DNA of 64,000 nucleotides from Candidatus Parabacteroides intestinigallinarum (lineage in GTDB: Bacteria; Bacteroidota; Bacteroidia; Bacteroidales; Tannerellaceae): positions 61,386 through 125,385 of the forward strand of contig DXEN01000054.1 in assembly GCA_019114945.1 (NCBI GenBank), given 5' to 3'. Made by a program: the position numbers and the translations under genes. The notes under the pieces are model-generated. The model did not search any database. It saw only the letters and a list, made by a program, of their open reading frames with translations, and was not told the DNA's origin. How positions within the stretch are numbered: the stretch's first letter is position 1; every line of letters starts with the position of its first letter. Positions 7,181 through 55,096 of this stretch are shown here, piece after piece.

Positions 7181-7182
7181 GG

Positions 7183-15944: not shown

Positions 15945-15988
15945 CGCCGCGGATACGGGCCGATATCGCCATTCTCACAAAGGGAAAA

Positions 15989-16036: not shown

Positions 16037-16081
16037 TTTATAGGCCTATCATCCGTAAATCATAAATCATAAATCATAAAT

Positions 16082-38749: not shown

Positions 38750-38816
38750 CACAATTACGAGTTATGAATTACGAGTTACCAATTACGATTTTTAGTCTTA
38801 GCCACTTTAACGGGAA

Positions 38817-38882
38817 AGACACATACGTGCGCGGGCAATTTAACATACGTGCGTGGGCAAAGACACGTACGTGCGTTGACCG
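38817..38882 (+). repeat. 22-bp array C
   Basis: Three units exactly 22 bases apart, core CACATACGTGCG / AACATACGTGCG / CACGTACGTGCG at 38820, 38842 and 38864, each followed by a GGGCAA-like spacer (the last is degenerate). It matches array D in inverted orientation. Confidence 0.75.
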
Positions 38883-38946
38883 GAGAAGATAGGTGCCTAT
38901 AACCAACCCTATTTGTGTCATAGCTTCAATATTTAAAATGATATAC

Positions 38947-39059
38947 CTATCAGACCCGTGGCTTGCGCCTGCCTTGATGAGGCATGATAATAAAAAGTGC
39001 TCGGTTCGCGGGATTGGTGATGAAAATCGCTCTATATTTGTAGAATAACCGGAAAAAGG
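38947..39059 (+). repeat. 113-bp promoter cassette, copy 1
   Basis: This 113-base segment recurs in reverse complement at 55097-55209 with 6 substitutions and no gaps. It starts CTATCAGACCC, contains the small hairpin TGCCTTGATGAGGCA and a -7 box TATATTTG (39033-39040), and ends CGGAAAAAGG. It drives the phosphatase gene. The sequences just outside the two copies are unrelated. Confidence 0.85.
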
Positions 39060-39074
39060 GCTTTTTTATTATTT

Positions 39075-39563
39075 ATGAGAGGTATGGAAAGGAAGTATCA
39101 AATTTGTTTCGTGTGCTCGGGCAACGCCTGCCGCTCGCCGTTCGCCGAGTGCGTGATGCGTGCGTTGCTGTCGCGGGCGGGCTTGATGGGAATTGAGGTT
39201 AGTTCGGCGGGTACGATTGAGTGGGGCAGGAATCCAAGGGATCCGATGATGACGAGGATTGCCAAGGAGATGGGTTACGAGTTGACGGGCGAGACGACTT
39301 GCGTGACCCGCGAATCGCTTTGGGAGGCTGATAGCATAGTCGTTTTCAGCCGGCACCACCGGGATGCCGTCACTCGTGTGTTGGATTATGCCCATTGGAA
39401 TCGGATTATTTTGTTTAGCCAGCTCGCTTTCGGCACCGACGAGGAGATAGAGGACCCGAATTACCAGACCGAGGCTGTCTATCGCCGCGTCGCCTCGCGG
39501 ATTGAGGACGGTTGCCGGTGGCTTGTCGATTGTTGGAGGCGATGCCCGCCTCCTATCCGATGA
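39075..39563 (+). CDS. Low-molecular-weight protein-tyrosine phosphatase
   Basis: A 162-residue phosphatase starting at ATG 39075 or, judging by the duplicated leader, at ATG 39084 (MERKYQICFVCSG). The active-site loop CSGNACRS follows the C-X5-R pattern near the N-terminus, and EDPNYQ supplies the general-acid Asp (usually DP in this family). LMW-PTPs dephosphorylate protein Tyr or Arg and often control polysaccharide export kinases, but no kinase lies nearby. The gene is isolated between inverted 22-bp arrays C and D and uses the duplicated 113-bp promoter, so it may be a transposable cassette. Confidence 0.88.
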   Translation: MRGMERKYQICFVCSGNACRSPFAECVMRALLSRAGLMGIEVSSAGTIEWGRNPRDPMMTRIAKEMGYELTGETTCVTRESLWEADSIVVFSRHHRDAVTRVLDYAHWNRIILFSQLAFGTDEEIEDPNYQTEAVYRRVASRIEDGCRWLVDCWRRCPPPIR

Positions 39564-39582
39564 TTAGGGGAATAGGAGGGGG

Positions 39583-39670
39583 GCACCTATGTTCTCCGGA
39601 TCGCGCACGTAGGTGAAATCGCTAACGCACCTATGTGAGTTTGCCAACGCACCTATGTGTCTTTAATAGT
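39583..39670 (-). repeat. 22-bp array D, inverted relative to C
   Basis: GCACCTATGTT, GCACGTAGGTG, GCACCTATGTG and GCACCTATGTG start at 39583, 39605, 39627 and 39649: four units with an exact 22-base period. Reverse-complemented, the third unit reads GGCAAACTCACATAGGTGCG, aligning with array C's GGCAAAGACACGTACGTGCG. Confidence 0.8.
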
Positions 39671-40025
39671 ACACATAATAGTCGACCTTGATATCGTTCT
39701 CCACGAAGAAATGGGAAATGGCGAAGTCGGCGACGTATTTGTCCTTTCGGAAGCGTCTGTACATTTTGTAGATCAGCTCCTTTCCGCTTCTCGCTTTCAT
39801 AAGTGTCATCAGTTTTTGGGTATTTGCCTCGTCGAGGTCCCAATTCATTTCCACACGACCGTCTCGCGATCGCTCGAAATCCTCCTCGGCGCCCCAATTG
39901 ATTTTTTGCATATCCAATTTCTTGTGGCGATAAGAGAGTATGATGAGGGTTCCCACTTTTTTGGGAGGATCCTCCGCCGCGTCGTTCCAAAGCAACGCTT
40001 GGTAAATCATCTTGTCTTTGTCCAT
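39663..40025 (-). CDS. Hypothetical protein, 120 residues
   Basis: A soluble protein starting MDKDKMIYQALLWNDAAEDP and ending DIKVDYYVYY. No domain is recognised. It is rich in Lys, Asp and Tyr, with a charged middle (MNWDLDEANTQKLMTLMKAR). The stop lies within the last unit of array D. The 41 bases upstream separate it from the lipoprotein gene on the same strand, so it may end a three-gene operon (41808 to 39663) that is AT-richer than its surroundings. No function is proposed. Confidence 0.6.
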   Translation of the reverse strand: MDKDKMIYQALLWNDAAEDPPKKVGTLIILSYRHKKLDMQKINWGAEEDFERSRDGRVEMNWDLDEANTQKLMTLMKARSGKELIYKMYRRFRKDKYVADFAISHFFVENDIKVDYYVYY

Positions 40026-40066
40026 GGCTGATGTGTTATGTACGTATTCGATTTTGTTTTCATCAA

Positions 40067-40639
40067 CTATTTGATTTCAAATTCCGCGTTCAGTTCTATG
40101 TCCTCTCTTCCCGTATGAAACGATTTACGTATCCGGTATTTCCCTTGGGGCAGATAATAATCCCTGCCGACAGGGAAACGAAAACAGTAAAGCAAGGGCG
40201 CCTTTTCCTTCGCGAAAGCGTCATCTTGCCAAGAAATGTCACCTTTTGTTTTCGCCATCGCCCATTCTGCCCCGTTCCATTGTTCCAATACCCAACCTCT
40301 TCCATACATGAGGAAATCGGACGTAGGGTTCGTCACGAATACATTGATGGTTTGTGCATTCTCCCAATAAGCGGTCCGCTCAGTCCACATCGAGACAGGT
40401 TTGTCCTTATACTCGTCCGGCAAGTTTTGGACATACCAAAGGTAGCATTCTGGTGTGTCATAGACGATGGTGTCTTCTTTATCAGCCGATGAAACCCGGA
40501 TGCTTGTGACCGTATCGCCTCCACCGATGATGGCCAATCCCTTGTCCGGTGTCGCTTCCGGTTGGAACAGTTGCCGCTTGCGGGTGCAACTGAGGCAAAT
40601 GATGCTTGATAGTGTCACGAATAAGATAATCGTTTTCAT
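40067..40639 (-). CDS. Lipoprotein with Ig-like (Big_14-type) domain
   Basis: A 190-residue protein with signal peptide and lipobox MKTIILFVTLSSIICLSC. The second half (TINVFVTNPTSDFLMYGRGWVLEQWNGAEW, here cut to YGRGWVLEQWNGAEW, then PQGKYRIRKSFH) fits the bacterial Ig-like domain PF20251 pattern, in which a Tyr/Gly-rich strand precedes a description of a wound-on weight. The assignment is by pattern only. It probably sits on the outer membrane facing the periplasm. The start overlaps the stop of the upstream gene by 4 bases (ATGA). Confidence 0.65.
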   Translation of the reverse strand: MKTIILFVTLSSIICLSCTRKRQLFQPEATPDKGLAIIGGGDTVTSIRVSSADKEDTIVYDTPECYLWYVQNLPDEYKDKPVSMWTERTAYWENAQTINVFVTNPTSDFLMYGRGWVLEQWNGAEWAMAKTKGDISWQDDAFAKEKAPLLYCFRFPVGRDYYLPQGKYRIRKSFHTGREDIELNAEFEIK

Positions 40640-41808
40640 TGTATGTTTTCTCCTTTTCTAAAAATGATAGGTATAGTCCATACGGATTCCCGGTATTCTC
40701 CTTTTCCGTAATAATTGATGGTCGGAGTCCAGCGGGGCATTTCTCGGATGATTTCCAATACTTGGTTATCCCAATCCTCGATACCGCAGCTTCGCAGGAC
40801 TTTGGTTTCATATACTTCTCCATACGAGTTAATCCGCACCGTATAGATGCCTCTCGCCTGCTGCTTGTTTCCCAGCGGTGCCGGGTCGTACACTAGCCGT
40901 TGGGTGATATATTCTTGCGCAGACCATGGTTTCCCTTCTTGAAAATAAGAGATTGCTTCCCATTCAACGAAGCACTGTTTCAATTCTTCTTCCGCGATGC
41001 TGTCCGCCTTCACCCTGTCCCTGTAATGTTGAGGTAAGAAAGGTACATATACCGTATAGAAACATTCCATCCGCTTGCCGTCCTTGTCCCTGCATGGTAA
41101 GCAATGCGGCAATTCCCTTGTCAGTCGGACAACTTCTTTGTCGAAATCTTTATGAAAGGAGGTCAAAATGTTGATGTCGCATGGCAACCCTAATGTGTCG
41201 ATAGAGAACATCGCTATGGAGTATCCGGCTTGGTTCTTCTTCAACTGTTGTTCGGGATATATCATTTGGGAAGTGAAATACTTTTCCAAATCATAATTCC
41301 ATATTGCCCATCGGGGCGGCTCTATGGCAGACAGGTCTTTAAATGGCTTTCCTGACCTGTCCAAAACACCCAAGTTCCAAATGTTATCTGCACGCCAAAT
41401 GCTATCCAAACGTTTTTCATTCTTCCGTTGTCCTTGTAAGCTATTATCTGTTATACATCTGACAAGGCCGACACCGACAGTCAACGTGTCGGGCAGATAT
41501 TGAAAGACCAATGTGTTGTCGGTCAGCTCTTTGATAATGTGATTTCCCCTTGATTCAAAAACTTTGATAGTATCATCGCATAGAGAATAAGAATGAAAAG
41601 TTTCTGTTCTTTTACCATCATACAAAAAGACGCTTCTCCATCCTGCGTCGCGAAATTCCATTTCCATAGTATATTGCTTGTCTTGGGGTAATTGCACTTT
41701 CCATACCTTGTTTTCCAGCAATGCGGACATATCTGCATAGTTGCCATTTTGGGCGGAAAGTCCGCCTATAACAACCCATAAGAGCAATATGTACAGAAAC
41801 TTTCTCAT
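40636..41808 (-). CDS. Secreted protein with two TonB-C-terminal-like domains
   Basis: A 390-residue protein with signal peptide (MRKFLYILLLWVVIGGLSAQ). After an N-terminal beta-rich part of about 130 residues come two repeats that look like the energy-transducing TonB C-terminal fold. Repeat one holds YSIAMFSIDTLGLPCDI with VVRLTRELPHCLPCRDKDG. Repeat two holds GIYTVRINSYGEVYETKVL with VLEIIREMPRWTPTINYYG. There is no membrane-spanning Pro-rich TonB stem, so it is not a classical TonB. It is the first gene of the AT-rich cluster. The function is unknown; a periplasmic binding role is a guess. Confidence 0.65.
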   Translation of the reverse strand: MRKFLYILLLWVVIGGLSAQNGNYADMSALLENKVWKVQLPQDKQYTMEMEFRDAGWRSVFLYDGKRTETFHSYSLCDDTIKVFESRGNHIIKELTDNTLVFQYLPDTLTVGVGLVRCITDNSLQGQRKNEKRLDSIWRADNIWNLGVLDRSGKPFKDLSAIEPPRWAIWNYDLEKYFTSQMIYPEQQLKKNQAGYSIAMFSIDTLGLPCDINILTSFHKDFDKEVVRLTRELPHCLPCRDKDGKRMECFYTVYVPFLPQHYRDRVKADSIAEEELKQCFVEWEAISYFQEGKPWSAQEYITQRLVYDPAPLGNKQQARGIYTVRINSYGEVYETKVLRSCGIEDWDNQVLEIIREMPRWTPTINYYGKGEYRESVWTIPIIFRKGENIQ

Positions 41809-41986
41809 CCTATTATCTTAATAGCATTCAAAGATAACGAAAAGAATGGTTAAGACGGACTTGTTGGCGAGATTAATAGATATTTATTGTTGGAGAACGG
41901 GCGGATAGAGGAAGAATACACGCCCAATAATCGTTAATGCGCTGTATATTTTCTTGTGGAAACTTTTCTCGTTGGATTTAATAATT

Positions 41987-41994
41987 TACTTTTG
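41987..41994 (+). promoter_or_regulatory. -7 box before the CoA-disulfide-reductase-like gene
   Basis: TACTTTTG fits TAnnTTTG. TTTT (41964-41967) stands at the -33 position with a 19-base spacer. The ATG is at 42044. Confidence 0.55.
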
Positions 41995-42043
41995 CGAAAG
42001 TTTCTAATGGAAAATAATAGTAACAAGGAAAAAGAATAGTCGT

Positions 42044-44509
42044 ATGAAAATCATTATTGTAGGAGGAGTGGCCGGCGGAGCTACGGCGGCGGCACGTATC
42101 CGTCGTAATACAGAGAGCGCGGAAATCATCTTGTTCGAGAAGGGAGCGCATATCTCGTATGCCAATTGTGGATTACCTTATTATATAGGTGGTGTTATCA
42201 AGGAGCGCAACCGCCTGTTCGTGCAGACGCCCAAAGCGTTCGGGAAGCGTTTTAACATTGATGTGCGCACGCTTTCGGAGGTGACCGCTATCGACCGGGA
42301 ACGGAAAGAAGTGACCGTGCGTACCGCCGACGGGAAGATGTACACGGAAAGTTATGATAAATTGCTGCTCTCGCCGGGCGCCTCGCCCGTACGTCCCCCG
42401 CTGAAGGGCATCGACTCGGAAGGCATCTTTACGCTTCGTAACGTAGCCGATACCGACCGTATCAAACAATACCTGAATGAGAAGCCGGTGAAACGTGCCG
42501 TGATTGTCGGCGGAGGTTTTATTGGGCTGGAGATGGCGGAGAACTTGGTTCATGCCGGCGTGGAGGTGTCGGTGGTGGAGATGGCGGATCAGGTGATGGG
42601 GCCTATCGACTATTCCATGGCCTCGTTCGTGCACGAACATCTGACGCGGAAAGGCGTGCGGCTTTATTTAAGCCAAGCGGTGGAATCGTTCGAGCGGACG
42701 GACGCCGGATTGAGCGTGGCTTTCAAATCGGGTATTCATCTGCGAGTGGATATGGTGATTCTTTCCATCGGCGTGCGTGCCGAGACTCGTTTGGCTTCTG
42801 ACGCCGGACTGCGATTGGGCGAGATGAAAGGCATCTATGTGGATGAGTACCTGCGGACATCGGATGAGAATATCTATGCCGTGGGCGACGCCATCGAATT
42901 CCCGCATCCCATCACGGGCAAGCCGTGGCTGAATTTCCTGGCGGGTCCCGCGAACCGGCAGGCGCGTATCGTGGCGGATAACATTGTCTTTGGCGATCGG
43001 GTGAAGTACGAGGGCTCCATCGGCACGTCGATCGCCAAGGTGTTCGACCTCACGGTGGCCTCTACCGGTCTTCCCGCCAAGCGCCTGAAGCAGATGGGGA
43101 TCGACTATCTTTCCTCCACCACGCACTCGGCTTCCCACGCCGGTTATTATCCGGGTGCCTTACAGATGTCTATCAAGATCACCTACTCGCCGAAGGACGG
43201 ACGGCTTTATGGAGCGCAAATCGTGGGCCGCGACGGAGTGGACAAACGGATAGACGAGTTCGCGCTGGTTATCAAGCAGGGTGGGACGGTGTACGACCTG
43301 ACCCACTTGGAGCATGCCTACGCGCCTCCGTTTTCCTCGGCCAAGGATCCGGTGGCTATCGCCGGTTATGTGGCAGGTAATATATTAAGCGGAAAGATGA
43401 CGCCTCTTTATTGGCGTGAGTTGAAAAACGCCGACCTGAGCCAGGTGTCTTTCGTGGATGTGCGCACGAAGGATGAGTATGAATTGGGAAATATTCCGGG
43501 TGCCATTAATCTGCCGCTCGACGAATTACGGGAGCACTTGGATGAGATTCCTCGCGACAAGCCCGTGTGGCTGTATTGCGGCGTGGGCTTGCGCGGCTAT
43601 TTGGCAAGTAATATTTTAAAGGATAATGGGTTCAAGGAGGTGCGCAACCTGATAGGTGGCATCAAGACCTATAAGGCGGCTACCGCGCCGGTGTGCCTGC
43701 CCGCGGATAGCGGGACGTGCGCGTCCGATCCGAAAGACGGGGCGAGGCGTGCCTGCGTGTCGGCGGAGGAAACGGCGGCCGAGGTGATAAAGGTGAACGC
43801 TTGCGGCGTGCAATGCCCCGGTCCTATCTTGAAACTGAAGAAAGGGATGGAGTCGCTGCGGCCCGGTCAATGCCTGGAGGTGAGCGCCACCGACGCCGGC
43901 TTCCCGCGTGACGCGGAAGCGTGGTGTCGCACGACGGGGAATCGTTTCCTCTCGACGACAGAGGAGAAAGGGGTGTATCGGGTGCGGATCGCCAAGGAAG
44001 AGGCGGCTCCCCGGCCGGCAACCGCTATGGCGAGCGGAGGAAAAGGCAAGACATTTATCCTTTTCAGTGACGATCTTGATAAGGCGTTGGCGACTTTTGT
44101 CCTCGCCAACGGCGCGGCGGCTACGGGCGAGAAGGTGACGATTTTCTTTACGTTCTGGGGTTTGAACGCGATCAAGAAGGAGCGAAAGCCGGCGGTGAAG
44201 AAAGACCTGTTCGGCAAGATGTTCGGGATGATGCTCCCGTCCAATTCCACGAAACTGAAGCTCTCGAAGATGAATATGGGCGGTATTGGGGCGAAGATGA
44301 TGCGCCACCTGATGGGGCAAAAAGGCGTGGATTCGTTGGAGTCGCTCCGCCGGCAAGCGTTGGATAACGGCGTGGAGTTTATCGCTTGCCAGATGTCGAT
44401 GGACGTGATGGGCGTGAAGCGCGAGGAATTGCTGGATGAGGTAAGCGTCGGTGGTGTCGCTACGTATATGAGTCGTGCCGATGAGGCGAACGTGAACTTG
44501 TTTATCTGA
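42044..44509 (+). CDS. CoA-disulfide reductase-like protein fused to rhodanese, TusA and DsrE domains
   Basis: An 821-residue four-domain protein. Residues 1-440: FAD/NAD(P)H pyridine-nucleotide-disulfide reductase (IIVGGVAGGATAAARIRR; active-site Cys in SYANCGLPYYIGG). Residues about 465-550: rhodanese domain, Cys in WLYCGVGLRGY. Residues about 585-660: TusA-like sulfur carrier with NACGVQCPGPILKLKKG. Residues about 665-821: DsrE/F-like domain (FILFSDDLDKALATFVLANG). The set suggests stepwise persulfide reduction and transfer between Cys residues in the cytoplasm. It is followed 4 bases later by a MarR regulator gene. Confidence 0.87.
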   Translation: MKIIIVGGVAGGATAAARIRRNTESAEIILFEKGAHISYANCGLPYYIGGVIKERNRLFVQTPKAFGKRFNIDVRTLSEVTAIDRERKEVTVRTADGKMYTESYDKLLLSPGASPVRPPLKGIDSEGIFTLRNVADTDRIKQYLNEKPVKRAVIVGGGFIGLEMAENLVHAGVEVSVVEMADQVMGPIDYSMASFVHEHLTRKGVRLYLSQAVESFERTDAGLSVAFKSGIHLRVDMVILSIGVRAETRLASDAGLRLGEMKGIYVDEYLRTSDENIYAVGDAIEFPHPITGKPWLNFLAGPANRQARIVADNIVFGDRVKYEGSIGTSIAKVFDLTVASTGLPAKRLKQMGIDYLSSTTHSASHAGYYPGALQMSIKITYSPKDGRLYGAQIVGRDGVDKRIDEFALVIKQGGTVYDLTHLEHAYAPPFSSAKDPVAIAGYVAGNILSGKMTPLYWRELKNADLSQVSFVDVRTKDEYELGNIPGAINLPLDELREHLDEIPRDKPVWLYCGVGLRGYLASNILKDNGFKEVRNLIGGIKTYKAATAPVCLPADSGTCASDPKDGARRACVSAEETAAEVIKVNACGVQCPGPILKLKKGMESLRPGQCLEVSATDAGFPRDAEAWCRTTGNRFLSTTEEKGVYRVRIAKEEAAPRPATAMASGGKGKTFILFSDDLDKALATFVLANGAAATGEKVTIFFTFWGLNAIKKERKPAVKKDLFGKMFGMMLPSNSTKLKLSKMNMGGIGAKMMRHLMGQKGVDSLESLRRQALDNGVEFIACQMSMDVMGVKREELLDEVSVGGVATYMSRADEANVNLFI

Positions 44510-44513
44510 CGCG

Positions 44514-44888
44514 ATGGAGAAGATTCAATGCATTTGTCGGATGAGAGACCTGATAAGGGCTCTCTCCGAATTGGAGACCCGGTTGGAGGAAACCTATGGC
44601 ATCACGCTCAACGAGGCGATGGTGTTGTGCGCCGTGGGCAAAGAGATCGTGTCGGCCGGCGACGTCACTTCCCGCACGGGCATGACTTCCTCGCACGCCT
44701 CGAAAACCATCCGCTCCGTGGAGGATAAGGGCCTGCTCTCGCGCCAGCTGGGCAAGCAAGACAGGCGACAGATGTATTTCGCGCTGACCCGGAAAGGGAG
44801 GAGCCGCCTGGAGCGTATCAAGGAGCGGGGGATTGATGTACCCGAGTGGTTGGCGCCGTTGTTCGCCGTGCGGGAGGCCGCGGAATAA
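44514..44888 (+). CDS. MarR-type winged-helix regulator
   Basis: A 124-residue protein. Residues about 38-100 form the winged helix (NEAMVLCAVGKEIVSAGDVTS, here ALCAVGK-like; recognition helix MTSSHASKTIRSVEDKGL; wing LGKQDRRQMYFALTRKG). It has Cys6 and Cys8 near the N-terminus (KIQCICRM), which could sense sulfur or redox state. It is 4 bases downstream of the sulfur-transfer fusion gene, which it probably regulates together with itself. The motif comparison is by eye. Confidence 0.82.
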   Translation: MEKIQCICRMRDLIRALSELETRLEETYGITLNEAMVLCAVGKEIVSAGDVTSRTGMTSSHASKTIRSVEDKGLLSRQLGKQDRRQMYFALTRKGRSRLERIKERGIDVPEWLAPLFAVREAAE

Positions 44889-44937
44889 GAAATGGAGATG
44901 TTTCGCGTGAATGGGATGTGGAATCCGCGAGTTTCAT

Positions 44938-44945
44938 TACCTTTG
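44938..44945 (+). promoter_or_regulatory. -7 box of the second GH43 gene
   Basis: TACCTTTG, 23 bases before ATG 44969; a good match to TAnnTTTG. Confidence 0.6.
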
Positions 44946-44968
44946 TAGAAACATTATAAAGGAGCGTT

Positions 44969-46030
44969 ATGAAAGGATTGAATTATATCTTATTGGCAAG
45001 CGTGTTGGGCGGCGTGGTGGCATGCGGCCCTAAAAGCGCACGTGAGGCGGAGGCTTCCTCCGCGTCCGCGGATTCTATCGAGGTGAAAGCGACGTACCGG
45101 AATCCCGTGATACGTATCTCCGCGCCGGATCCGACGGCGATCCGCTTGGCGGACGGGACGTATTATCTTTACGCGACGGAGGACATCCGCAACTTACCGA
45201 TCTTCAAGTCAAGGAACTTGGTGGATTGGGAAGAGGTCGGCACGGCGTTTACCGACGCGACCCGTCCGGACTTCGTGGATAACAATCCGGAGGGAAAGAA
45301 GGCAGCTTTGTGGGCGCCCGATATCCATTTTGTTAAAGAAAAATATCTGCTGACGTACTCGCTGGCGGAGTGGGGAAACCATTGGATCAGCACGATCGGC
45401 TATGCGGTGGCGGATTCCCCGGAAGGGCCTTTCACACCGAAAGGGAAGATCTTCAATAGTCGCGATGTGGACGTGGAGAACTCGATCGACCAGTTCGTGT
45501 ACGAGGAGGCAGGTCGGTATTATATCCTGTGGGGAAGTTTCTTTGGTATTTATATCATGGAATTGGAGATTGCCGATGATTTGACGATCACGCCTAAGTT
45601 CGATACCAAGCGACAGATTGCCGGGAACGCCTACGAGGGCATCAACCTGTGGAAACGGGATGGCTATTATTACTTGTTCGGCTCGATCGGCTCGTGTTGC
45701 GAGGGCGAGAAGAGCACCTATACGACGGTGGTGGGCCGTAGCCGCGATTTGTGGGGACCGTATGTGAATAAAGCGGGCGAGCGGATGCTGGACAACGCGC
45801 ACGAGGTGGTGGTGCATAAGGACGACCGCTTCGTAGGCACCGGGCATAATGCCTTGTTGCAGTTGGACGATGCCGGGCAGACGTGGATGTTGTATCACGC
45901 GTTCGAGTTGTCGAATTTGGGGGCGCAACGGCAAGTCCTTTTGGACCGCGTCTTATGGGACGACGCGGGATGGCCCGTGATAAATGGCCAACAGCCCTCG
46001 CATGAGGCGGAGGCTCCGGAGATCCGATAG
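44969..46030 (+). CDS. Glycoside hydrolase family 43 lipoprotein
   Basis: A 353-residue lipoprotein with lipobox VVACG after MKGLNYILLASVLGG. A single GH43 propeller starts with RNPVIRISAPDPTAIRL (catalytic Asp in APDP), then KAALWAPDIHFVKEKYLLTY and EGINLWKRDGYYYLFGSIGSC (acid Glu). It lacks the C-terminal sandwich of the other GH43 (5428-6978). It is likely an arabinanase- or xylosidase-type enzyme on the outer membrane. It is followed 37 bases later by an MBL-fold lipoprotein gene, probably co-transcribed. Confidence 0.87.
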   Translation: MKGLNYILLASVLGGVVACGPKSAREAEASSASADSIEVKATYRNPVIRISAPDPTAIRLADGTYYLYATEDIRNLPIFKSRNLVDWEEVGTAFTDATRPDFVDNNPEGKKAALWAPDIHFVKEKYLLTYSLAEWGNHWISTIGYAVADSPEGPFTPKGKIFNSRDVDVENSIDQFVYEEAGRYYILWGSFFGIYIMELEIADDLTITPKFDTKRQIAGNAYEGINLWKRDGYYYLFGSIGSCCEGEKSTYTTVVGRSRDLWGPYVNKAGERMLDNAHEVVVHKDDRFVGTGHNALLQLDDAGQTWMLYHAFELSNLGAQRQVLLDRVLWDDAGWPVINGQQPSHEAEAPEIR

Positions 46031-46067
46031 AAAAGGAAGGCATGAATCGTTTTAAATAAGGAAGTAT

Positions 46068-46970
46068 ATGAGAAGAAGAGAATGGTTACGTAGTGTTGCG
46101 AGCGCGGCCGTGCTGTTGGCGGCCACCGGATGCGCGAACGGAAGTAAGAAATCGGGAGCGGATGTCGCTTCGGATGCCGCCGAAGGTACGGGAACGTCGG
46201 GCGACGTTCGGGCCGCGTTGCCCGATGGCGTGGTCAGTCGGCGATTCGGTTCCGCCAAGATCACTTGGATCCGCGATAATGAGGAAGGACAGATGCGGGC
46301 GAATCAGATGTTTGTCGGTGCCGATAGCACGCGAATCGCCCAGTGGGCTCCGGAAGGAGGCGTTCCCACGGCGATCGCCGCTTATCTCGTGGAGGTGGAC
46401 GGGAAACGTATCCTGATCGATACGGCCAACGGCAAGCCGGACAGCCGCCTCTTGCCCGGTCTCGCCGCGTTGGGCATCCAGCCCGAGGCGATCGATTATA
46501 TTTATATCACCCATTTCCATGGCGACCATCTCGGAGGCATGATGAAAGAGGGCGCTCCGGTCTTCGCGAACGCCCAGGTCTATGTCTCGGCGCCCGAGTA
46601 TGACGCGTGGATGACGAGCCCCGCGCTCGCGGGGCGGCGTGCGCAAGCCGAGGCCACGATGAGAGCCTACGAGGCGCGGTTGCGTAAGTTCGCTTTTGGC
46701 GACACCCTGCCCGGCGGCATCCTCGCGATGGACGCGGTGGGACATACGCCCGGTCATGCGGCATTCGTGGTCGACAAATGCTTGATCGGGGGCGATTTCG
46801 TGCACGGCGCGGCTCTCCAATTAGCTCATCCGGAGTTGTGCGCCCGCTTTGATATGGACGTGCCGAAGTCCGTCGAGACCCGCAAGCGCCTCATGGCTTA
46901 TGCGAAAGAGAACGGCATGACTTTGGCGGGTATGCATCTGCCCGCTCCCGGCTTCATCGAGCGGTGGTAA
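46068..46970 (+). CDS. Exported MBL-fold metallo-hydrolase
   Basis: A 300-residue metallo-beta-lactamase-fold hydrolase. The N-terminus MRRREWLRSVASAAVLLAATGC combines twin arginines with a lipobox, so Tat or Sec export with lipid anchoring is likely. The zinc motif is YITHFHGDHLGG, followed by GHTPGH and GGDFVHGA. It belongs to the broad lactonase/hydrolase group, and the substrate is unknown. It follows GH43 on the same strand. The GCANGSKKSGADVASDAAEG linker is low complexity. Confidence 0.85.
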   Translation: MRRREWLRSVASAAVLLAATGCANGSKKSGADVASDAAEGTGTSGDVRAALPDGVVSRRFGSAKITWIRDNEEGQMRANQMFVGADSTRIAQWAPEGGVPTAIAAYLVEVDGKRILIDTANGKPDSRLLPGLAALGIQPEAIDYIYITHFHGDHLGGMMKEGAPVFANAQVYVSAPEYDAWMTSPALAGRRAQAEATMRAYEARLRKFAFGDTLPGGILAMDAVGHTPGHAAFVVDKCLIGGDFVHGAALQLAHPELCARFDMDVPKSVETRKRLMAYAKENGMTLAGMHLPAPGFIERW

Positions 46971-47002
46971 AACGTTGGGAAGATGTGTCAAATCGAGGAA
47001 AA

Positions 47003-47102
47003 GCACGCGGATGACGCGGATTAAGCGGATGAACGCAGATCGTTTTTATTGATTTATAATTAAATAAATCTGCGCAAATCCGCTTAATCTGCGTCTGCGT
47101 GC
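47003..47102. mobile_element. MITE-like inverted-repeat element without ORF
   Basis: The left arm GCACGCGGATGACGCGGATT (continuing AAGCGGAT) at 47003-47040 is inverse to the right arm at 47063-47102, which ends TCTGCGTCTGCGTGC. A 22-base AT-rich centre separates them. The octamer design matches the ends of the GxxExxY element at 12734-13184. It lies between the MBL gene and the convergent fbp gene. Confidence 0.7.
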
Positions 47103-47121
47103 CAATATCAAATTTCGACAT

Positions 47122-49110
47122 TCACTCCTTCTCTTTGATGAGGCCGTGCCGATAGGCGAAGAGCAGTTTCTCCAGGTCCTTGATCTGGTTTCGCAACTCG
47201 GCTCCTTTATCGGTGTCCTTCACCATCTGCCGGTGCGAGCTTAGCTCTACCACGATGGTCGTGGACTTGATGTCTAATCCTTCCGCGATCGCCTTGGCGC
47301 GCGATTCGAACGGCTCGTGTTGCACCAGCTGGAAACCGCGGGAGTGATAAACCAGCGTATAACCGGCGATGCCCGTTTCCAGGTGATAGGGGCGGGAGAA
47401 GCCGCCATCGATCACCAGCATCTTCCCGTTCGCCTTGATGGGGTTCTCGCCCATGTTGGAGCGCACCGGCACATGGCCGTTGATAATATGGCGATGCGGA
47501 CCCGTCACCCCGAACTCGTCCAATATCTTGTCGCAGATATCCTCGCGCTCGCGCAAGGCGTAATAAGCCCCTTTCTCCTCCTTGTGTGTCTCCGGATCCT
47601 CGATGAAAGCCCGCTCGAAGGTCGCCATCTTGCTCTTGTCGAACAGGGGCGAGTCCTTGCCTCCCCACAAATACCAGATATAATCGCTCGCGTACTCGAC
47701 TTCCTCCTGGTCGCCGGTCTTGAAATAAGCGGTACGGATCAGTTGGTCCACTCGGTCCAGCAACGCCCGTCCTTTGTAGGTCTTTCCTAAGATGGACACT
47801 TCCTTGAACGTGCCGTCCGGGTTCATGGGGACCGAGGCGTGGAACAATAGGTTCGAGTTGCACACCTGGTACATGCTCCCGTGCCGGAAGAAGCAGCGCA
47901 TGTGTTTCTTCAGCTTCTCGCTGCTCTCGAACGAATGCCATATCTTATGGATCAGGTCCTCCTCCTCGATCGACAGGCGGTACGGGTCCTTGGGGTCCAA
48001 GGTTGGCCAGTTCGTGTCCCTCAGCGCGTATTCTTTCCCGTTCACGCGTACGGTGCCCCGCTTCAGGTCGATGAGGTGCAACAGCATCCGGTCGTCCATG
48101 TCGAACTCCGGCCGTCGCCGGATGATCTCGCCTTCCAGTTTGAATTGGATGATCGTGATCGCCTTGTGCATCTGGGCGATCAGGCGGATGGTCTTCTCGT
48201 CCGGCTCGATGTCGGCGTATTTGGTCTTGGGGATGAACAAGGCGCAGGGATCGTCGCCGTACGCCTCCATCGCGAAGGTGGCGAGGGGCAGCAGGTTGAT
48301 GCCGTAGCCATCCTCCAGCGTCGCCATATTCCCGAAGCGGAGACACATGCGGATTACGTTCGCGATGCTGACCAGGTTGCCCGAGGCGGCGCCCATCCAC
48401 AGTACGTCATGGTTGCCCCATTGGATATCGAAGTTGTGGTAATCGCACAGGATATCCATGATCAGGTGCGCGCCCGGGCCGCGGTCGTAAATATCCCCGA
48501 TGATGTGCAGCAGGTCGATCGTCAGTCGCTGGATCAGGTTGCAGAGCGCGATGATGAAATCGTCGGCGCGCCCGGTCGAGACGATCGTGCGGATGATTTG
48601 GTCCACGTACGCCGATTTGTTCGGCTCCACCGACGACTCGTGCAACAACTCCTGGATGATGTAGGAGAACTCCTTGGGCAGGGCCTTCCGTACCTTCGAG
48701 CGCGTATATTTGGACGACACGTTGCGGCAGACGCGTACCAATTGGTTCAACGTCACCGGGTACCAATCCTCCAAGTCCTGTTCCCGGCTCTTGATCAGCT
48801 CCAGTTTCTCCTCGGGATAATAAATCAAGGTGCACAATTCCTTCTTCTCCGACTCCCGGAGCGTGTTGCTGAATATCTCGTTCACCTTGCGTTTCACGGC
48901 GCCGGAGGCGTTCCGCAGCACGTGGTCGAACGCCTGGTCCTCCCCGTGCAGGTCGCTCAGGAAATGTTCCGTGCCTTTCGGCAGGTTCAGGATCGCCTCC
49001 AGGTTTATGATCTCCGTGCTCGCGTCGGCGATTGTCGGGAAGCTCCGTGCCAGGAGGCGCAAGTAACGCAAATCGCCCTCTACGGACGCTGCCATCATAT
49101 CTGTTGTCAT
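47122..49110 (-). CDS. fbp: Fructose-1,6-bisphosphatase class III
   Basis: A 662-residue gluconeogenic enzyme of the Firmicutes/Bacteroidetes class III (FBPase_2) type. Metallophosphatase motifs are LSDLHGEDQAF, IIGDIYDRGPGAH, WGNHDVLWMG and GHVPVRSNMGENPIK. It hydrolyses fructose-1,6-bisphosphate in the cytoplasm. Length is normal. A -7 box (TATCTTCG, 49137-49130) 20 bases before the ATG gives it a promoter separate from the upstream PD40 gene. Confidence 0.96.
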   Translation of the reverse strand: MTTDMMAASVEGDLRYLRLLARSFPTIADASTEIINLEAILNLPKGTEHFLSDLHGEDQAFDHVLRNASGAVKRKVNEIFSNTLRESEKKELCTLIYYPEEKLELIKSREQDLEDWYPVTLNQLVRVCRNVSSKYTRSKVRKALPKEFSYIIQELLHESSVEPNKSAYVDQIIRTIVSTGRADDFIIALCNLIQRLTIDLLHIIGDIYDRGPGAHLIMDILCDYHNFDIQWGNHDVLWMGAASGNLVSIANVIRMCLRFGNMATLEDGYGINLLPLATFAMEAYGDDPCALFIPKTKYADIEPDEKTIRLIAQMHKAITIIQFKLEGEIIRRRPEFDMDDRMLLHLIDLKRGTVRVNGKEYALRDTNWPTLDPKDPYRLSIEEEDLIHKIWHSFESSEKLKKHMRCFFRHGSMYQVCNSNLLFHASVPMNPDGTFKEVSILGKTYKGRALLDRVDQLIRTAYFKTGDQEEVEYASDYIWYLWGGKDSPLFDKSKMATFERAFIEDPETHKEEKGAYYALREREDICDKILDEFGVTGPHRHIINGHVPVRSNMGENPIKANGKMLVIDGGFSRPYHLETGIAGYTLVYHSRGFQLVQHEPFESRAKAIAEGLDIKSTTIVVELSSHRQMVKDTDKGAELRNQIKDLEKLLFAYRHGLIKEKE

Positions 49111-49129
49111 AGCTTATCTATTTTATACG

Positions 49130-49137
49130 CGAAGATA
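49130..49137 (-). promoter_or_regulatory. -7 box of fbp
   Basis: Minus-strand TATCTTCG, 20 bases before ATG 49110, inside the 40-base gap after the PD40 stop. Confidence 0.55.
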
Positions 49138-49150
49138 AGCGGATTTCCGC

Positions 49151-50647
49151 TTATTTGAACCGTACCTGCTCCGCTTTATTCTTCCGCGCCGCCTCTTGGA
49201 TCGCGTAGGGGCTGACCGTCACTTCCCCGCGTACCAGCTCCGGTATATTGTAGGAATAGAGCAGATAGTCGTATTCGTCCGGATCCTCTCGCGGCACGAG
49301 AAACGGCTTGGCGGGTTGGCCGGCCTCGTCGATCGCGCAAATGTAAGGCAACGTGTATAAACCATTGTCGCGCCGGGTACTGAACACCACCCAATCGCTC
49401 CCGCTACTCCACGAGTGGTAGCTCTCCGTGTCCGAGCTGTTCAATGCTGTCATATCCACTTGCGTGCGGGTACGCAGGTCCAGCATCCGGATCTCCGCGT
49501 CGGTGTGCCAAATGGGGAACTGCCCGTATGCCGTTTCCGTGTACATCAGGAAGCGGCCGTCGGGCGAGACGCGCGGGAAGGTGTAGCTTAGGCTGTCCGC
49601 CCGCGCCAGCGTGTCGGCGGGGAAACGGATCTCGCCCCGTTCCGCGTCGAAAGGCACCCGGCAAATGCTATATCGTATCCGGTCGTAGTTTTCGGGCATC
49701 TTCTGGGCCGGCGCCGTGCAGTAATAGAGCCATTCGCCATCGGGCGAGAAGGCGGGAAACGTCTCGAAATCGGATTTCGAGAGAAACGAGGCTTTCGATA
49801 GGATCTCCCGGCCGCGCGTATCGTAGACCACTACGTCCGATTCCAGGTCGTACACCTCCATCTTCCGTTCTTTTACGGCGTGGAAGAATTGCCGGATCTC
49901 GTTCACCGAGGTCACGATATAGCGTCCGGAAGGATGCCAGTAAGGATAGGTCAGGTGGCTGATCGTCTCGTCGGTTTTCGTGTTCAGTTTACTGATTCGC
50001 CCTTCCTGGACGATGTAGGTGCCCCCATACGCCGCCCGCATGTGGAACATCATTTGCTCCGGGTCGTTCATGCGGAAGGAGTGGCAATTGATGCAGTTGT
50101 AGCCGGTCATGTCGTTGCGGATGATCGGTTTCTCCTCGAACGATTCCAGGTCGCGCTGGTAAAGCCCGACGATGTGCCATTTCTCGTAACCCGGCTCGAT
50201 CAGGCGATACACCAAACGCGAGTCGATAGGGCGCTCGCTCACGTAGATCGGGAACGAGGTCCAGCGCGTCCATGCGTCCCCGTGCCGCGTCATTATCTCT
50301 ACCGGGATGGAGTCGCCCCGATGCGCGCGGGTCAGGCGCGCCCAGTCTTTGGGCTTGATACGGATGGTGGCGCCGCCGGTGTATGTCCGGTCGCCTATCC
50401 GCACGTGATACTCGTCGGCGGGAATATCGACGCGGAAATTCAGCGGGGCGATATTCGCGGGCACTGTCACGCCCGTATAATCCGGGAATATGGCGGGTCG
50501 CTCCGCGCGTGCGTCTGTCGCCACCGGGGCGCTTTCCCCCGAGCAGCCCGATAACGACGCTCCCGCCAAGGCTATCGTTTGCGCGATGATATATCCGATT
50601 ACGAGGCGCCGGGTGATCTGTCGTTTCATCTCATTCCTCATGGTCAT
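49151..50647 (-). CDS. PD40/TolB-like beta-propeller lipoprotein with a CxxCH motif
   Basis: A 498-residue envelope protein. The leader is IIAQTIALAGASLSGCSG with lipobox LSGC; ATG 50647, 50641 or 50629 could start it. The middle has GYNCINCHSF, a CxxCH heme-c motif. The C-terminal half repeats PD40-like strands (YPYWHPSGRYIVTS, FPAFSPDGEWLYYC, FPRVSPDGRFLMYT). The family is common in Bacteroidetes and its function is unknown. Only 1 base separates its start from the stop of the DUF6057-like gene. Confidence 0.7.
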   Translation of the reverse strand: MTMRNEMKRQITRRLVIGYIIAQTIALAGASLSGCSGESAPVATDARAERPAIFPDYTGVTVPANIAPLNFRVDIPADEYHVRIGDRTYTGGATIRIKPKDWARLTRAHRGDSIPVEIMTRHGDAWTRWTSFPIYVSERPIDSRLVYRLIEPGYEKWHIVGLYQRDLESFEEKPIIRNDMTGYNCINCHSFRMNDPEQMMFHMRAAYGGTYIVQEGRISKLNTKTDETISHLTYPYWHPSGRYIVTSVNEIRQFFHAVKERKMEVYDLESDVVVYDTRGREILSKASFLSKSDFETFPAFSPDGEWLYYCTAPAQKMPENYDRIRYSICRVPFDAERGEIRFPADTLARADSLSYTFPRVSPDGRFLMYTETAYGQFPIWHTDAEIRMLDLRTRTQVDMTALNSSDTESYHSWSSGSDWVVFSTRRDNGLYTLPYICAIDEAGQPAKPFLVPREDPDEYDYLLYSYNIPELVRGEVTVSPYAIQEAARKNKAEQVRFK

Positions 50648-50648
50648 T

Positions 50649-52406
50649 TTATTTAGGCCCCGGTACGAATTGGGCGTAATAATAATAGGTATCGCCGAAT
50701 TGCTCCTTCAGCACGGCCGGAGGCATCGAGCGGGCTACCTTCAGGAAACGCAAGAGGCGCTCGTGTACCGCTTTGTCGACCTTGTAGCTACGGTATTCCT
50801 CCGGGTCGGGCCGTACCGACGAGAAGAAGAGGCAGATCGCCTCTTGGTAAAGCCTCGGGAAAGCCTCGCCGCGATCCCGCCTCTGCCGCATGTAGTGCAT
50901 AAAGGTCGTTAGGTCCTTGCGCAGCAGCAAGTAGCCCATCGCGTACTCGAAGGCAGGGCGGTTGTCCGGATGGTCGTCCACCAAGTAAGCCAAGGCGCTC
51001 GGGAAGGCCTTTGTCAGGTCGAACGGGTTGTCCGTTATCGGGAGCGTCGCCCGCTTCGCCGCTACCCAATCCGTCCGCGCGCACACGGCGGAGTCCAATA
51101 AGGGGCGTTGGGCGGAGGCCCATGCCCGGTAGCGCGGTGTCGATTCCAATAGCTTGATGTACTTCTCGGCGGCCCGGTACTCGCCCGTCACCAGGTAGGT
51201 CTCCACCAGCCGTTTCATCAAGCGGGGTTGCACGAGGCGCTGCGCGCTCAGCACGCCGACGAAGGCGAACCGCTGCGCGGCGTTCACCTGCCCGACTTGC
51301 CACGCCACCTCGCTCGCCTCGATCAGTCCCAGCCTGCTCCGCGGGTCGTGGGGGATGAATCCCTCCTCGCCAATCTGCGGGAAGCGCGTCAACTCGTCGG
51401 TGAAGCGGTCCGTGCGCGATAAGGCCAGGTTCAGGTAAATCAGCGCGTCCTTGTCGCGCACGCCGTGCGCGCGGGCGTGGTCGGCTATCGCCTCCCATTG
51501 GCCTTGCCGGGCGTAATAGTCGTATCGGTAGGCTTGTGCCAGCGGGTCTTCCCGGTACAGGAGCCCGTATGCCATGGCGAGCGACACGATGGCGTATGGA
51601 CCGATCGCCCGCCACGCGGCTTTCCGTGTCGGCGTACGGCGCTCCTTCAGGCAAGCGAGCGCCAAGGCGATCGCGGGGAAAGAGAGGCCCAATACCCAGA
51701 GGGACGGGGGCACCGGATATTCCGGGTGGCACATGTATTTGCTGAAATACGCCTCGCGCGTGGGCAGGATGTAGACCGTGCGCAGGGCGATCAGGGGCAG
51801 GAGCGTAGCCCAGGCGAGCGAGAGCGCCGCCACGGCCCAACGAGCCTTGCCCTTGCCCGCGCGCGCCTCGTAGATGGCGATGAGCGCCGCGAGCAGCAGG
51901 TTCGCCGGGGCGGATAGGAAATAAGTGGCCGTCAGCGCGAGGAACCCCGCCGCGTAGCGAACCCACGTAGCGCGGATCGCCGTATAAAGCAGCGCGGTGA
52001 GCAAGCCGAGAAGAATGGCCGTGAGCGGGGCGATCGACTCTTGCGGGTAGAGCCAGAATAAATAGGCCGGCACCCAGGCGAGCCACATCGTCGCCCGGAG
52101 GCGGCACGCCCTCAGGTACGCGTAGAAGCAGGCGGAGATGCCTCCCAGCAGCGAGGCGATCACCATGGCCGCCCCATACGGGCGCGTGAAGAGGAGGCTC
52201 AGCGCCTCCGTCACGTACTCGTTCATCCCGCCCGGCTCCGCCCATCGCGCGTGGAGGTAGCCGGGAGTGGTCTGGAACATCATGTATTGCTCCAGGAAGC
52301 AATAATAATATCCATAGTTCCTGCCGAAAAACAGGACGCTACCGGCCACGAACAGGACCCATATCACGATCGTATGGTTTACGACCCACGGCTCGCTTCT
52401 TCCCAT
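50649..52406 (-). CDS. DUF6057-like polytopic membrane protein
   Basis: A 585-residue protein with about ten hydrophobic spans in the first 290 residues (WVLFVAGSVLFFGRNYGYYY, LLGLLTALLYTAI, LPLIALRTVYILP) and a soluble C-terminal half of helical-hairpin, TPR-like character (DALIYLNLALSRTDRF, LMKRLVETYLVTGEYRAAEK). I think of it as DUF6057, an uncharacterised Bacteroidetes family, with moderate certainty. It is packed between the C1 peptidase (9-base gap) and the PD40/CxxCH lipoprotein (1-base gap), so the three products probably work at the envelope together. Confidence 0.6.
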   Translation of the reverse strand: MGRSEPWVVNHTIVIWVLFVAGSVLFFGRNYGYYYCFLEQYMMFQTTPGYLHARWAEPGGMNEYVTEALSLLFTRPYGAAMVIASLLGGISACFYAYLRACRLRATMWLAWVPAYLFWLYPQESIAPLTAILLGLLTALLYTAIRATWVRYAAGFLALTATYFLSAPANLLLAALIAIYEARAGKGKARWAVAALSLAWATLLPLIALRTVYILPTREAYFSKYMCHPEYPVPPSLWVLGLSFPAIALALACLKERRTPTRKAAWRAIGPYAIVSLAMAYGLLYREDPLAQAYRYDYYARQGQWEAIADHARAHGVRDKDALIYLNLALSRTDRFTDELTRFPQIGEEGFIPHDPRSRLGLIEASEVAWQVGQVNAAQRFAFVGVLSAQRLVQPRLMKRLVETYLVTGEYRAAEKYIKLLESTPRYRAWASAQRPLLDSAVCARTDWVAAKRATLPITDNPFDLTKAFPSALAYLVDDHPDNRPAFEYAMGYLLLRKDLTTFMHYMRQRRDRGEAFPRLYQEAICLFFSSVRPDPEEYRSYKVDKAVHERLLRFLKVARSMPPAVLKEQFGDTYYYYAQFVPGPK

Positions 52407-52415
52407 CCTCGCTTG

Positions 52416-53609
52416 TTAAATGCCCAGTTTCGCCCGGATGGCCGCGGGAATCGCGTCCTTATGCACGATAATGTTCAGTGTCTTGTAAGCCACGAACGCT
52501 TCCGAGGCGTACCACGTGCCCTTGTATTTGCTATCCGTTCCCCACGAGTTCTTCACCATGTAGTACTTCTTCCCGGTCTGGTCCTTGGCGATGCCGTAGA
52601 TTTGCATGCCATGGTCGTCGGTCGTCTGGTAATTATCGTACCCCTCCTGGCGCATCTCCTGCGTGATGGTCAGCTCCTCGCAAGGGCTCTGTATCAGCTT
52701 CTTGATTTCCTCGTTCTTCTCCTTCTGGCTCAAGCCCAGCCAGCGATCCTGGTCGGAGCCGCTCCGCTCCATCGACTCCACGTCCGGTACCACGGCGATG
52801 CCGTCGCGCGTGAAGCCCGTCTCGCTCACGTCCGAGCCCCAGGCGATGGAATAGCCCGTGTTGATCGCGTTGTCGAACACTTGCATAAACTCGTCCAGCG
52901 GCAGGTTGTACGAGTCGGACCAGCGCCAGTTGTCCTGCACCTCGATGGGGAAGGCCGTGTAGAACGGGTGGTGCGTGAACGACGTCAGCGATACGTAATC
53001 GTCCGGGTTCAAGCCCAGCTCGGCGGCGAAGCTCTTCGGGGTGTATTCTTTCCCTTTATAGGTGAAAGTCGTGGGCAGCTCGCCCAGGTACGCGTCGATA
53101 ATCCCGTCGAAGCCTTTCTTCCATGCCGTGGTGAGCTTCCGGTTCGGGTTCTTCACGATGGCCTGCACATACGCCAGGGCGGCTTGCTCCATCTCGCCGT
53201 GCACGTGCATGTTCTCGCCGTACCGCAAGCCGGTCATCACCTCCTCCGGCACGATGCCGTAGTGCTTCCACGCGTAGAGCACGTCGTAGAACGAGCCCCC
53301 TTGCGCGAAGTTCAGGTAGCCATGCAGGCGCACGTATTTCTCCGCCTTGTCTTTATACGAGTGGTTTACGATGAACATCTCCGAGAGGTCGTATTCCCCT
53401 TTCCCCATGCGTAGCAATTCCGACTCCAGGAATCCCATCGTGGAGAAGCACCAGCACGTGCCGGTGCGATTCTGGTTCTTTACCGGCGATATTTTCACCT
53501 CTTTCACGGGCGTGAACACATACCCGTCTCTTTTCTCTTCTTGCGCGCCCGCCGTTGTCGTGAACGCGTAGGCGAGCAATACGCTCGCGGCGATTACAGT
53601 CTTTTTCAT
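52416..53609 (-). CDS. C1-family (bleomycin hydrolase-like) aminopeptidase, secreted
   Basis: ATG 53609 (MKKTVIAASVLLAYAFTTTAGAQ, signal peptide) is chosen; the upstream ORF-track start at 53633 breaks the signal. A 397-residue papain-clan peptidase: NQNRTGTCWCFSTMGFLE carries the nucleophile Cys, DDHGMQIYG the His and MVKNSWG the Asn. The C-terminus resembles bleomycin hydrolase/PepC. It hydrolyses peptides in the periplasm. It is the first gene of the unit with the DUF6057-like and PD40 genes, and a -7 box stands at 53661-53654. Confidence 0.9.
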   Translation of the reverse strand: MKKTVIAASVLLAYAFTTTAGAQEEKRDGYVFTPVKEVKISPVKNQNRTGTCWCFSTMGFLESELLRMGKGEYDLSEMFIVNHSYKDKAEKYVRLHGYLNFAQGGSFYDVLYAWKHYGIVPEEVMTGLRYGENMHVHGEMEQAALAYVQAIVKNPNRKLTTAWKKGFDGIIDAYLGELPTTFTYKGKEYTPKSFAAELGLNPDDYVSLTSFTHHPFYTAFPIEVQDNWRWSDSYNLPLDEFMQVFDNAINTGYSIAWGSDVSETGFTRDGIAVVPDVESMERSGSDQDRWLGLSQKEKNEEIKKLIQSPCEELTITQEMRQEGYDNYQTTDDHGMQIYGIAKDQTGKKYYMVKNSWGTDSKYKGTWYASEAFVAYKTLNIIVHKDAIPAAIRAKLGI

Positions 53610-53633
53610 GTTATTTTTTTTAGATGACTCCAT

Positions 53634-53951
53634 TTAATTTATGTTACTTCCCGCGAATGTAGCTTTTTATTTTGAGTTTCGCACGAATTCGGCGGGGGAA
53701 TCGTCGCCTGTTCCTCGCTCGGGTGCACAAAAGAAAACACTTCCTTCGTCCCCTTTATGGGATACCTTCAATTTCTTTTTCGATGTTGCCATAATTAATT
53801 TTATTAATATAATGCAGTGAATCAGGGTCGTAAGATAGTTATAGGCTGTGTATTCTCGTAATCCCCCAAATCCTCTGGCAATCCCACGGGAAAATATCTT
53901 TACATAGTCGGACTCACCCGACAGTATTCGCGGCAAGGGAAGTGTTACCTC
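53634..53951. other. Intergenic stretch before the C1 peptidase gene
   Basis: It holds the -7 box TACATTCG (minus, 53661-53654) and otherwise AT-rich sequence. A 41-codon minus-strand ORF (53792-53667) begins MATSKKKLKVSHKG but has no family match, so it is not called. Confidence 0.45.
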
Positions 53952-54497
53952 TCATAAATAATAAAAGTGACTATAATTAAAATCGGTCAACGGCGTACGG
54001 GCATCGTCCAACGCCTGGAGCCGCCCCGGTATCTCGCGCAACGGCACCCCCTCGTCCAGCAATGCGCGGAGGCGACGGAACAAGCGGTCGTTCTCGCGCG
54101 CCAATTCCTCGCCGGTGGTAGGCACCTCGTACAATAGCGCCTCCGACAGCTCGGTGATAATCATCCCCGAGAAAAGCCCGTGCAGCCCCTCCGCCCGGCC
54201 GAATAAGTCGGCGTGGCACCATATCGCCACGATATTCCCCGGATGCTTCCGCAGGTAAAAAGCGTGCGAATGGTTCACGATCAGGCGATCGAAATCGCGC
54301 CCGTCCGCCTCGCGGGAGAGCAGGCCCTTGTCCGAGCCATGCCCCAACAACAGGATACGCTCGCAAGCCGACACCCGGTTCAGCGCCTCCCGGATCCGCT
54401 TATTGCTACTGTCCTGATCCAGCCGATGGGCGTCCTGCCCTTCGTAAAGGACGGAAAGCATCGCCGTCGTCTTATCTCTCGGATGTATCACCAGCAT
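53952..54497 (-). CDS. Uncharacterised protein with GHG...WC dyad, partner of NADAR
   Basis: A 181-residue soluble protein. RILLLGHGSDKGLL is followed about 45 residues later by NIVAIWCHADLFG and then GLFSGMIITELSEA. The His in a hydrophobic-strand HG and the Cys at the end of the next strand resemble the catalytic dyad of clan CD peptidases such as CHAT and caspases. The remainder is helical and acidic. The similarity is only in spacing and strand context. It lies 28 bases downstream of the NADAR gene on the same strand, so one operon is likely. No family is recognised. Confidence 0.6.
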   Translation of the reverse strand: MLVIHPRDKTTAMLSVLYEGQDAHRLDQDSSNKRIREALNRVSACERILLLGHGSDKGLLSREADGRDFDRLIVNHSHAFYLRKHPGNIVAIWCHADLFGRAEGLHGLFSGMIITELSEALLYEVPTTGEELARENDRLFRRLRALLDEGVPLREIPGRLQALDDARTPLTDFNYSHFYYL

Positions 54498-54525: not shown

Positions 54526-55077
54526 TTACCCCGCGGACTCCCCATTCAACAAATCCCGCACCTCCATCAAGGCGAATCCCAGCAGGTTCTCTCCTTCCCA
54601 AAGCCGTGGAAAACAGACGTCCTTATCGTCCTTGCTCATTCCAATCCCCCAAATCGTATCATAAGGGCTCGCCTCTACGAGGACCTTATCGCCCGTCCGG
54701 CAAAGATAGCTCGACAAATGCGGATTCTGCGAGAACTTAGCGTAATTCCCCTCCACCACGATCTGGAATTTATGCCGTCCCCAAGTCGCGTCGTCATAGC
54801 CTTGTATCAAACGGCCGATCTTCTTCATCTTCATCGGATCCGTCGTTTCCAAGATTTGGCGATAAGCCTCCCTATCCCCGAAAAGCAACGCCTTGCGAGC
54901 CATCATGTACTGCTCGGCGCAACAATAAGAAACCCCATCCACGAAAAAATAACACGTATACCACTGGCTGAGACAAGCGTCGGACACGTTTCCGCCTTTC
55001 TCCGTATGCCCCCAAAAGAAAAGAAACCGGGGAGCATACATCCGCATTACGCTATCAATCGTATATTTCCGTTCCAT
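54526..55077 (-). CDS. NADAR domain protein (YbiA-like)
   Basis: A 183-residue NADAR (DUF1768) protein. FFWGH is the opening motif, CAEQYMMARKALLFGD the central one and ASPYDTIWGIGM the C-terminal one, all typical of the YbiA/NADAR fold. The family acts on N-glycosidic bonds to ribose in nucleotide-like molecules; some members reverse guanine ADP-ribosylation of DNA. It is transcribed from a copy of the 113-bp cassette and starts MERKY like the phosphatase gene. It is the first gene of a pair with the GHG/WC protein. Confidence 0.87.
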   Translation of the reverse strand: MERKYTIDSVMRMYAPRFLFFWGHTEKGGNVSDACLSQWYTCYFFVDGVSYCCAEQYMMARKALLFGDREAYRQILETTDPMKMKKIGRLIQGYDDATWGRHKFQIVVEGNYAKFSQNPHLSSYLCRTGDKVLVEASPYDTIWGIGMSKDDKDVCFPRLWEGENLLGFALMEVRDLLNGESAG

Positions 55078-55096
55078 AAGAAACCTTTCTAAAAAT

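Follow-up and report, generated by a model that had tools for sequence, protein, structure and literature searches.

The window, meaning throughout the whole stretch of 64,000 nucleotides that was analysed, holds two copies of a promoter-like segment placed in inverted orientation and 16 kb apart (Table 1). Copy A stands before the gene of an LMW phosphotyrosine phosphatase; copy B stands before that of a NADAR domain protein, which is followed in the same operon by ORF2. No NADAR homologue was found in 38 congeners, and congener phosphatases are only 27-35% identical to that of the window. ORF2 gave no Pfam, NCBIfam or PHROGs match. Downstream of the phosphatase lies a 120-aa ORF, a relative of which occurs ~2.4 kb upstream of an ORF2 relative in the fecal contig MT837816, and which may belong to the island of ORF2 relatives. 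The unit made up of copy A and the phosphatase sits between two inverted copies of a dispersed intergenic repeat (~22-nt units, ACACATACGTGCGTNGGCAAAG...) that has 49 matches in the genome and none in the fetched congener loci.

Table 1. Features of the locus, with positions counted from the first nucleotide of the window.
Feature	Position	Strand	Basis or remark
Dispersed 22-nt-unit repeat, copy left of unit A	38812..38897	+	independent family
Putative promoter segment, copy A, 119 bp, precedes LMW phosphatase	38947..39065	+	inverted-repeat arm, 93% to copy B
TATATTTG, putative -7 box, copy A	39033..39040	+	sequence; Bacteroidota-type TAnnTTTG, consensus from PMC7366714
Scar, 21 nt equal to ORF2 3' end (FYYL-stop, then GAGGT), directly before phosphatase start	39064..39084	+	
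Segment presumably inverted (phosphatase to C1 peptidase), bounded by the repeats	39075..53945	.	best-likelihood skew-reversed block 39075-53633
LMW phosphotyrosine phosphatase (PF01451), MERKYQICFVCSGNACR	39084..39563	+	~60% to ORF2-linked phosphatases, ~32% to the genome's other copy
Dispersed 22-nt-unit repeat, inverted copy right of unit A	39582..39664	-	
120-aa ORF downstream of phosphatase	39663..40025	-	
ORF2 3' end, source of the scar, right-hand edge of shared unit	53946..53966	-	
ORF2, 181 aa, family of unknown function, C-terminus FNYxNFYYL, second gene of NADAR operon	53952..54497	-	
NADAR domain protein (PF08719; TIGR02464)	54526..55077	-	
Putative promoter segment, copy B, 119 bp, precedes NADAR	55091..55209	-	
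TATATTTG, putative -7 box, copy B	55116..55123	-	sequence

Results

Between 38947-39059 and the reverse complement of 55097-55209 there are six substitutions and no gap, as a preliminary description of this DNA had reported. The ungapped match reaches 119 nt (38947-39065 paired with the opposite strand of 55091-55209, 93% identity), with eight substitutions at 38959, 38989, 39003, 39005, 39042, 39049, 39060 and 39061. It had also been stated that similarity is lost just outside 113 bp. The contiguous match does end, beyond 119 nt, but one item had been overlooked: 39064-39084 matches 53946-53966 (minus strand) exactly over 21 nt. BLAST against the whole genome (2.98 Mb) returned exactly two copies of the segment (E = 8e-46 for the second). 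The segment was absent from all 38 congeners searched, phage and plasmid collections gave zero DNA matches to it, and its exact 42-nt core pattern had no match in viral contigs. The copies are not random with respect to placement, and a copied promoter-like segment does now head two different genes, as had been suggested; the accompanying suggestion that it is mobile loses its footing with only two copies and no third location in the genome or among the relatives.

The overlooked match, TTTTATTATTTATGAGAGGTA, leads from copy A to the phosphatase and is identical to the window's own ORF2 3' end, stop codon included. It occupies the position of a gene end, 5 nt before the phosphatase ATG, and FNYxNFYYL-stop is the usual C-terminal signature of the ORF2 family. 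The chance expectation of such a 21-nt match in the whole genome is 1e-3 by BLAST and 1.4e-6 under an order-3 Markov model of the contig. Both copies have identical outer edges, CTATCAGACC ... GAGGTA. In copy B, which consists of promoter, NADAR and ORF2, these edges span 1264 bp, from the promoter through the end of ORF2, and the unit stops at GAGGTA, the point where the phosphatase would be expected to start. Copy A keeps 119 bp of the left end and 21 nt of the right end of the shared unit, joined at a T-run, and reads promoter, last ORF2 codons, phosphatase. The unit contains only promoter, NADAR and ORF2, with no transposase or integrase gene.

When GTDB genomes were scanned with ORF2 as the query, 28 Bacteroidales loci emerged. 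The phosphatase start meets the ORF2 stop in three of them (L048, with a 6-nt gap; L053, where the frames overlap and the start lies at the stop; L066, with TAATG), and in L050 and L051 the phosphatase lies one gene beyond ORF2. Identity to the window phosphatase is ~60% for those of L045, L048, L050, L051 and L053. Given such phosphatases next to ORF2 in Bacteroidales loci, the phosphatase and ORF2 appear, on the evidence of gene neighbourhood, to be natural partners. The placement of the scar mirrors that of the relatives in which the ORF2 stop adjoins the phosphatase start. Since copy A carries the ORF2-end scar and relatives link ORF2 with a phosphatase, the ancestral order was probably promoter-NADAR-ORF2-phosphatase, with NADAR heading the operon. 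The preliminary description spoke of unrelated genes; with ORF2 directly before such a phosphatase in other Bacteroidales, the phosphatase, ORF2 and NADAR most likely share an origin in one operon. The unsplit order was not found in any genome compared, and no NADAR of the window type adjoining ORF2 was seen outside the window.

Many ORF2 loci form islands in which macro/DUF1810, NUDIX-NrtR, ADP-ribosylglycohydrolase, PP2C, VWA, AAA and gp30.3-like genes occur. ORF2 represents an uncharacterised Bacteroidales family (loci L043-L070 and L204), the islands of which abound in phosphatases and NAD/ADP-ribose genes. In the L067 MAG the ORF2 frame is broken and the phosphatase is internally deleted, as though the pair decays jointly. 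A plasmid or phage origin was considered and rejected: there was no DNA match, a pattern scan of viral contigs gave no confirmed relative of ORF2 or the phosphatase, and the sole match to ORF2 was an unannotated fecal contig labelled phage.

The sequence TATATTTG is present in both copies, as previously described, at 35-39 nt from the listed ORF starts; for copy A this distance refers to an alternative ATG at 39075, the MERKY ATG being 9 nt downstream. It fits TAnnTTTG, the Bacteroidota -7 consensus (PMC7366714), near a gene start in both copies, in the manner of a housekeeping promoter. Intergenic DNA makes up 10% of the window, yet 8 of its 21 TAnnTTTG sites are intergenic, and five of these eight fall 21-50 nt upstream of an ORF start. 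Because TATATTTG fits this consensus and such sites cluster in intergenic DNA before ORF starts, 38947-39065 and copy B are likely to act as promoters. The copied segment also holds a hairpin (TGCCT-TGATG-AGGCA) and a substitution-free core at 39006-39041. Two other readings of the segment were rejected. For a structured RNA, Rfam gave no match at gathering thresholds, no tRNA was found in the window, and the single-strand fold of the segment is ordinary (z = -1.7). For a coding remnant, one reading frame is open across the segment (SDPWLAPALMRHD...SIFVE-stop); none of the fetched loci contains a relative, and of the 5 differences that separate the two copies in this frame, 3 alter a residue.

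Both downstream proteins begin MERKY, as had been pointed out, and from this it had been suggested that the start was copied along with the promoter. That suggestion does not hold, as the DNA from promoter to ATG differs between the copies and the N-termini of the two families explain K-Y: relatives of the NADAR protein begin MKYTI, MKYTT or MKYNI, and those of the phosphatase MxxxYKICFVC (also written M-x-x-Y-K-I-C-F-V-C). Both families have K-Y of their own and share only E-R beyond it, so that a copied start-codon region is unneeded and the common MERKY is a coincidence.

AT skew at four-fold degenerate sites was computed over the 125-kb contig. In the block 39075-53633 the plus-strand skew is zero or negative for all 12 genes, whichever strand encodes them; pooled by coding strand it is -0.36 and -0.20, and the near flanks give +0.27 and +0.35. 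Of 84 twelve-gene blocks, this one has the lowest skew (permutation p = 1e-5), a value that should be read with some caution, as a description of the effect and no blind test, since the scan was post hoc; the weight lies on the agreement of the edges with the two copies. Within 19.9-61.5 kb the best-likelihood reversed block is exactly 39075-53633 (gain 43.1). The gain falls to 39.8 when ORF2 is added and to 37.9 with ORF2 and NADAR, both of which lie outside the block. Three foreign-looking genes supply few four-fold A/T sites to this test. Weak or reversed four-fold AT skew, partly with low GC3, was also seen in window positions 1-18388 and ~1.8 kb leftward in the contig; this stretch is perhaps another rearranged or foreign region.

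In the congener G036 a C1 peptidase gene (minus strand) lies 5.3 kb from DPP4 and lipA (both plus strand), head to head, and un-inverting the block would set the C1 peptidase beside DPP4 in the same head-to-head arrangement. G018 and G024 also have a C1 peptidase near DPP4, but it is more distantly related (60%) and lies in the opposite orientation. Since neither site has a stable gene order within the genus, the direction of the inversion is given by a single congener. Precise empty sites were not recovered in the congeners, where intergenic DNA is too diverged and homology stops at the promoter of DPP4 or PdaC, and at the C1 peptidase/DPP4 break, where a second duplication was looked for, similarity did not exceed chance.

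Discussion

Our results make it quite probable that the two copies are an inverted duplication left by a ~15-kb chromosomal inversion that split a NADAR-ORF2-phosphatase operon. The 119-bp arms and the 21-nt ORF2 end occur at both ends of the block, inverted, and the skew is reversed over exactly this block, the order being supported in G036. According to this reconstruction the ancestor would have had promoter-NADAR-ORF2-phosphatase as a single operon. Behind it would have come the block now enclosed by the copies, and at the far end of that block the C1 peptidase would have adjoined DPP4. One break would have hit the operon, the second would have separated C1 peptidase from DPP4, and the block from phosphatase to C1 peptidase would have been rejoined in reverse. 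We infer that the breaks were staggered and that fill-in duplicated the DNA at the operon break (1264 bp, promoter to ORF2 end) in inverted form at both ends. Copy B would have remained whole, from the promoter through NADAR and ORF2 up to GAGGTA, the former phosphatase start. For copy A the simplest reading is an internal deletion at the T-run, which would have taken NADAR and ORF2 and spared the promoter, the last ORF2 codons and the phosphatase. Each half of the operon would thereby have retained the same promoter.

The chief variant of the inversion model, in which repair copied nothing but the promoter, as a templated patch, is conceivable, though we rate it as less likely. With similar reserve it could be proposed that duplication at inversion breakpoints is a way for an operon to become two co-controlled units, and that the segment here, with its hairpin and invariant core, is a regulated promoter/operator retained twice because phosphatase, ORF2 and NADAR need co-expression.

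Two events without any inversion could also account for the scar and for where the shared unit ends: promoter-NADAR-ORF2 (1264 bp) would have been copied in inverted form to a site 16 kb away, and the donor would then have lost NADAR and ORF2. Such a history leaves unexplained why a skew-reversed block should end exactly at both copies, and likewise the C1 peptidase-DPP4 neighbourhood in G036, and we regard it as unlikely.

The preliminary description favored a mobile or copied promoter-plus-start module that places unrelated genes under one control, a reading suggested by near-identical copies ahead of two genes, each with TATATTTG and MERKY. That reading now appears highly improbable. The 2.98 Mb of the genome contain just two copies, the congeners, phages, plasmids and viral contigs (42-nt core) have none, the genes were in all likelihood originally operon partners, the scar implies that more than a promoter took part, and the N-terminus of each family accounts for MERKY. 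We give equally little credence to the idea that the inverted copies are older and that homologous recombination between them flipped the block later: 119-bp inverted repeats at 93% could in principle recombine, but NADAR and ORF2 lie between the arms and would flip too, whereas the likelihood scan excludes them (43.1 vs 37.9), and the ORF2 scar would be unexplained.

Under the inversion with breakpoint duplication, the matching promoters are most likely what a single rearrangement left behind as a scar, rather than a promoter module that travels. The locus would then provide a sequence-level case of a rearrangement that breaks an operon without orphaning the distal gene, insofar as the break itself provides the second promoter. 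It also calls for caution, in that "shared promoter cassettes" may be rearrangement scars. A gene-end scar combined with reversal of strand skew offers a cheap search route to more such cases. Furthermore, the locus brings both the uncharacterised Bacteroidales family of ORF2 and a dedicated LMW phosphatase into connection with NADAR and with further NAD/ADP-ribose genes.

Several known systems resemble parts of this arrangement. NADAR and ADP-ribose neighbourhoods (PMC9503650; PMC11543638) share with it a NADAR protein and, through the relatives of ORF2, islands of NAD/ADP-ribose genes; they differ in that the window NADAR has no adjoining DarT-like partner, its partners presumably being the LMW phosphatase and ORF2. 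The invertible promoters of Bacteroidales (e.g. PMC8748976) likewise tie a TAnnTTTG promoter to inverted repeats, in the same order, and are short segments flipped between those repeats. Unlike these, the window promoters sit within the repeat arms and both point inward, and a flip would not change transcription; a phase-variable invertible promoter was rejected on the same arrangement, the promoter being inside the arms and not between short inverted repeats.

When an inversion arises through staggered breaks, the stretch between the nicks is found inverted at both ends (PMC3355041). In inversion 2h of Drosophila mojavensis one duplicate stayed intact and the other lost pieces, as we propose here; unlike the present case, 2h is eukaryotic, kilobases long and involves no operon (PMC3355041). 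The closest bacterial counterpart among those compared would be DNA duplication associated with inversion, described by Furuta et al. 2011 for Helicobacter pylori (with PMC8963470 and PMC4671568 as the citing papers), reported in Thermus (PMC8963470) and proposed for hpn/hpn-2 (PMC4671568). As far as the cited passages describe that process, it has in common with our locus that DNA of one breakpoint, single-copy beforehand in that process and presumably in the window too, comes to lie inverted at both ends of the block, and it differs in that the unit in the window holds a putative operon promoter, the break probably fell within an operon, and one copy has lost its genes.
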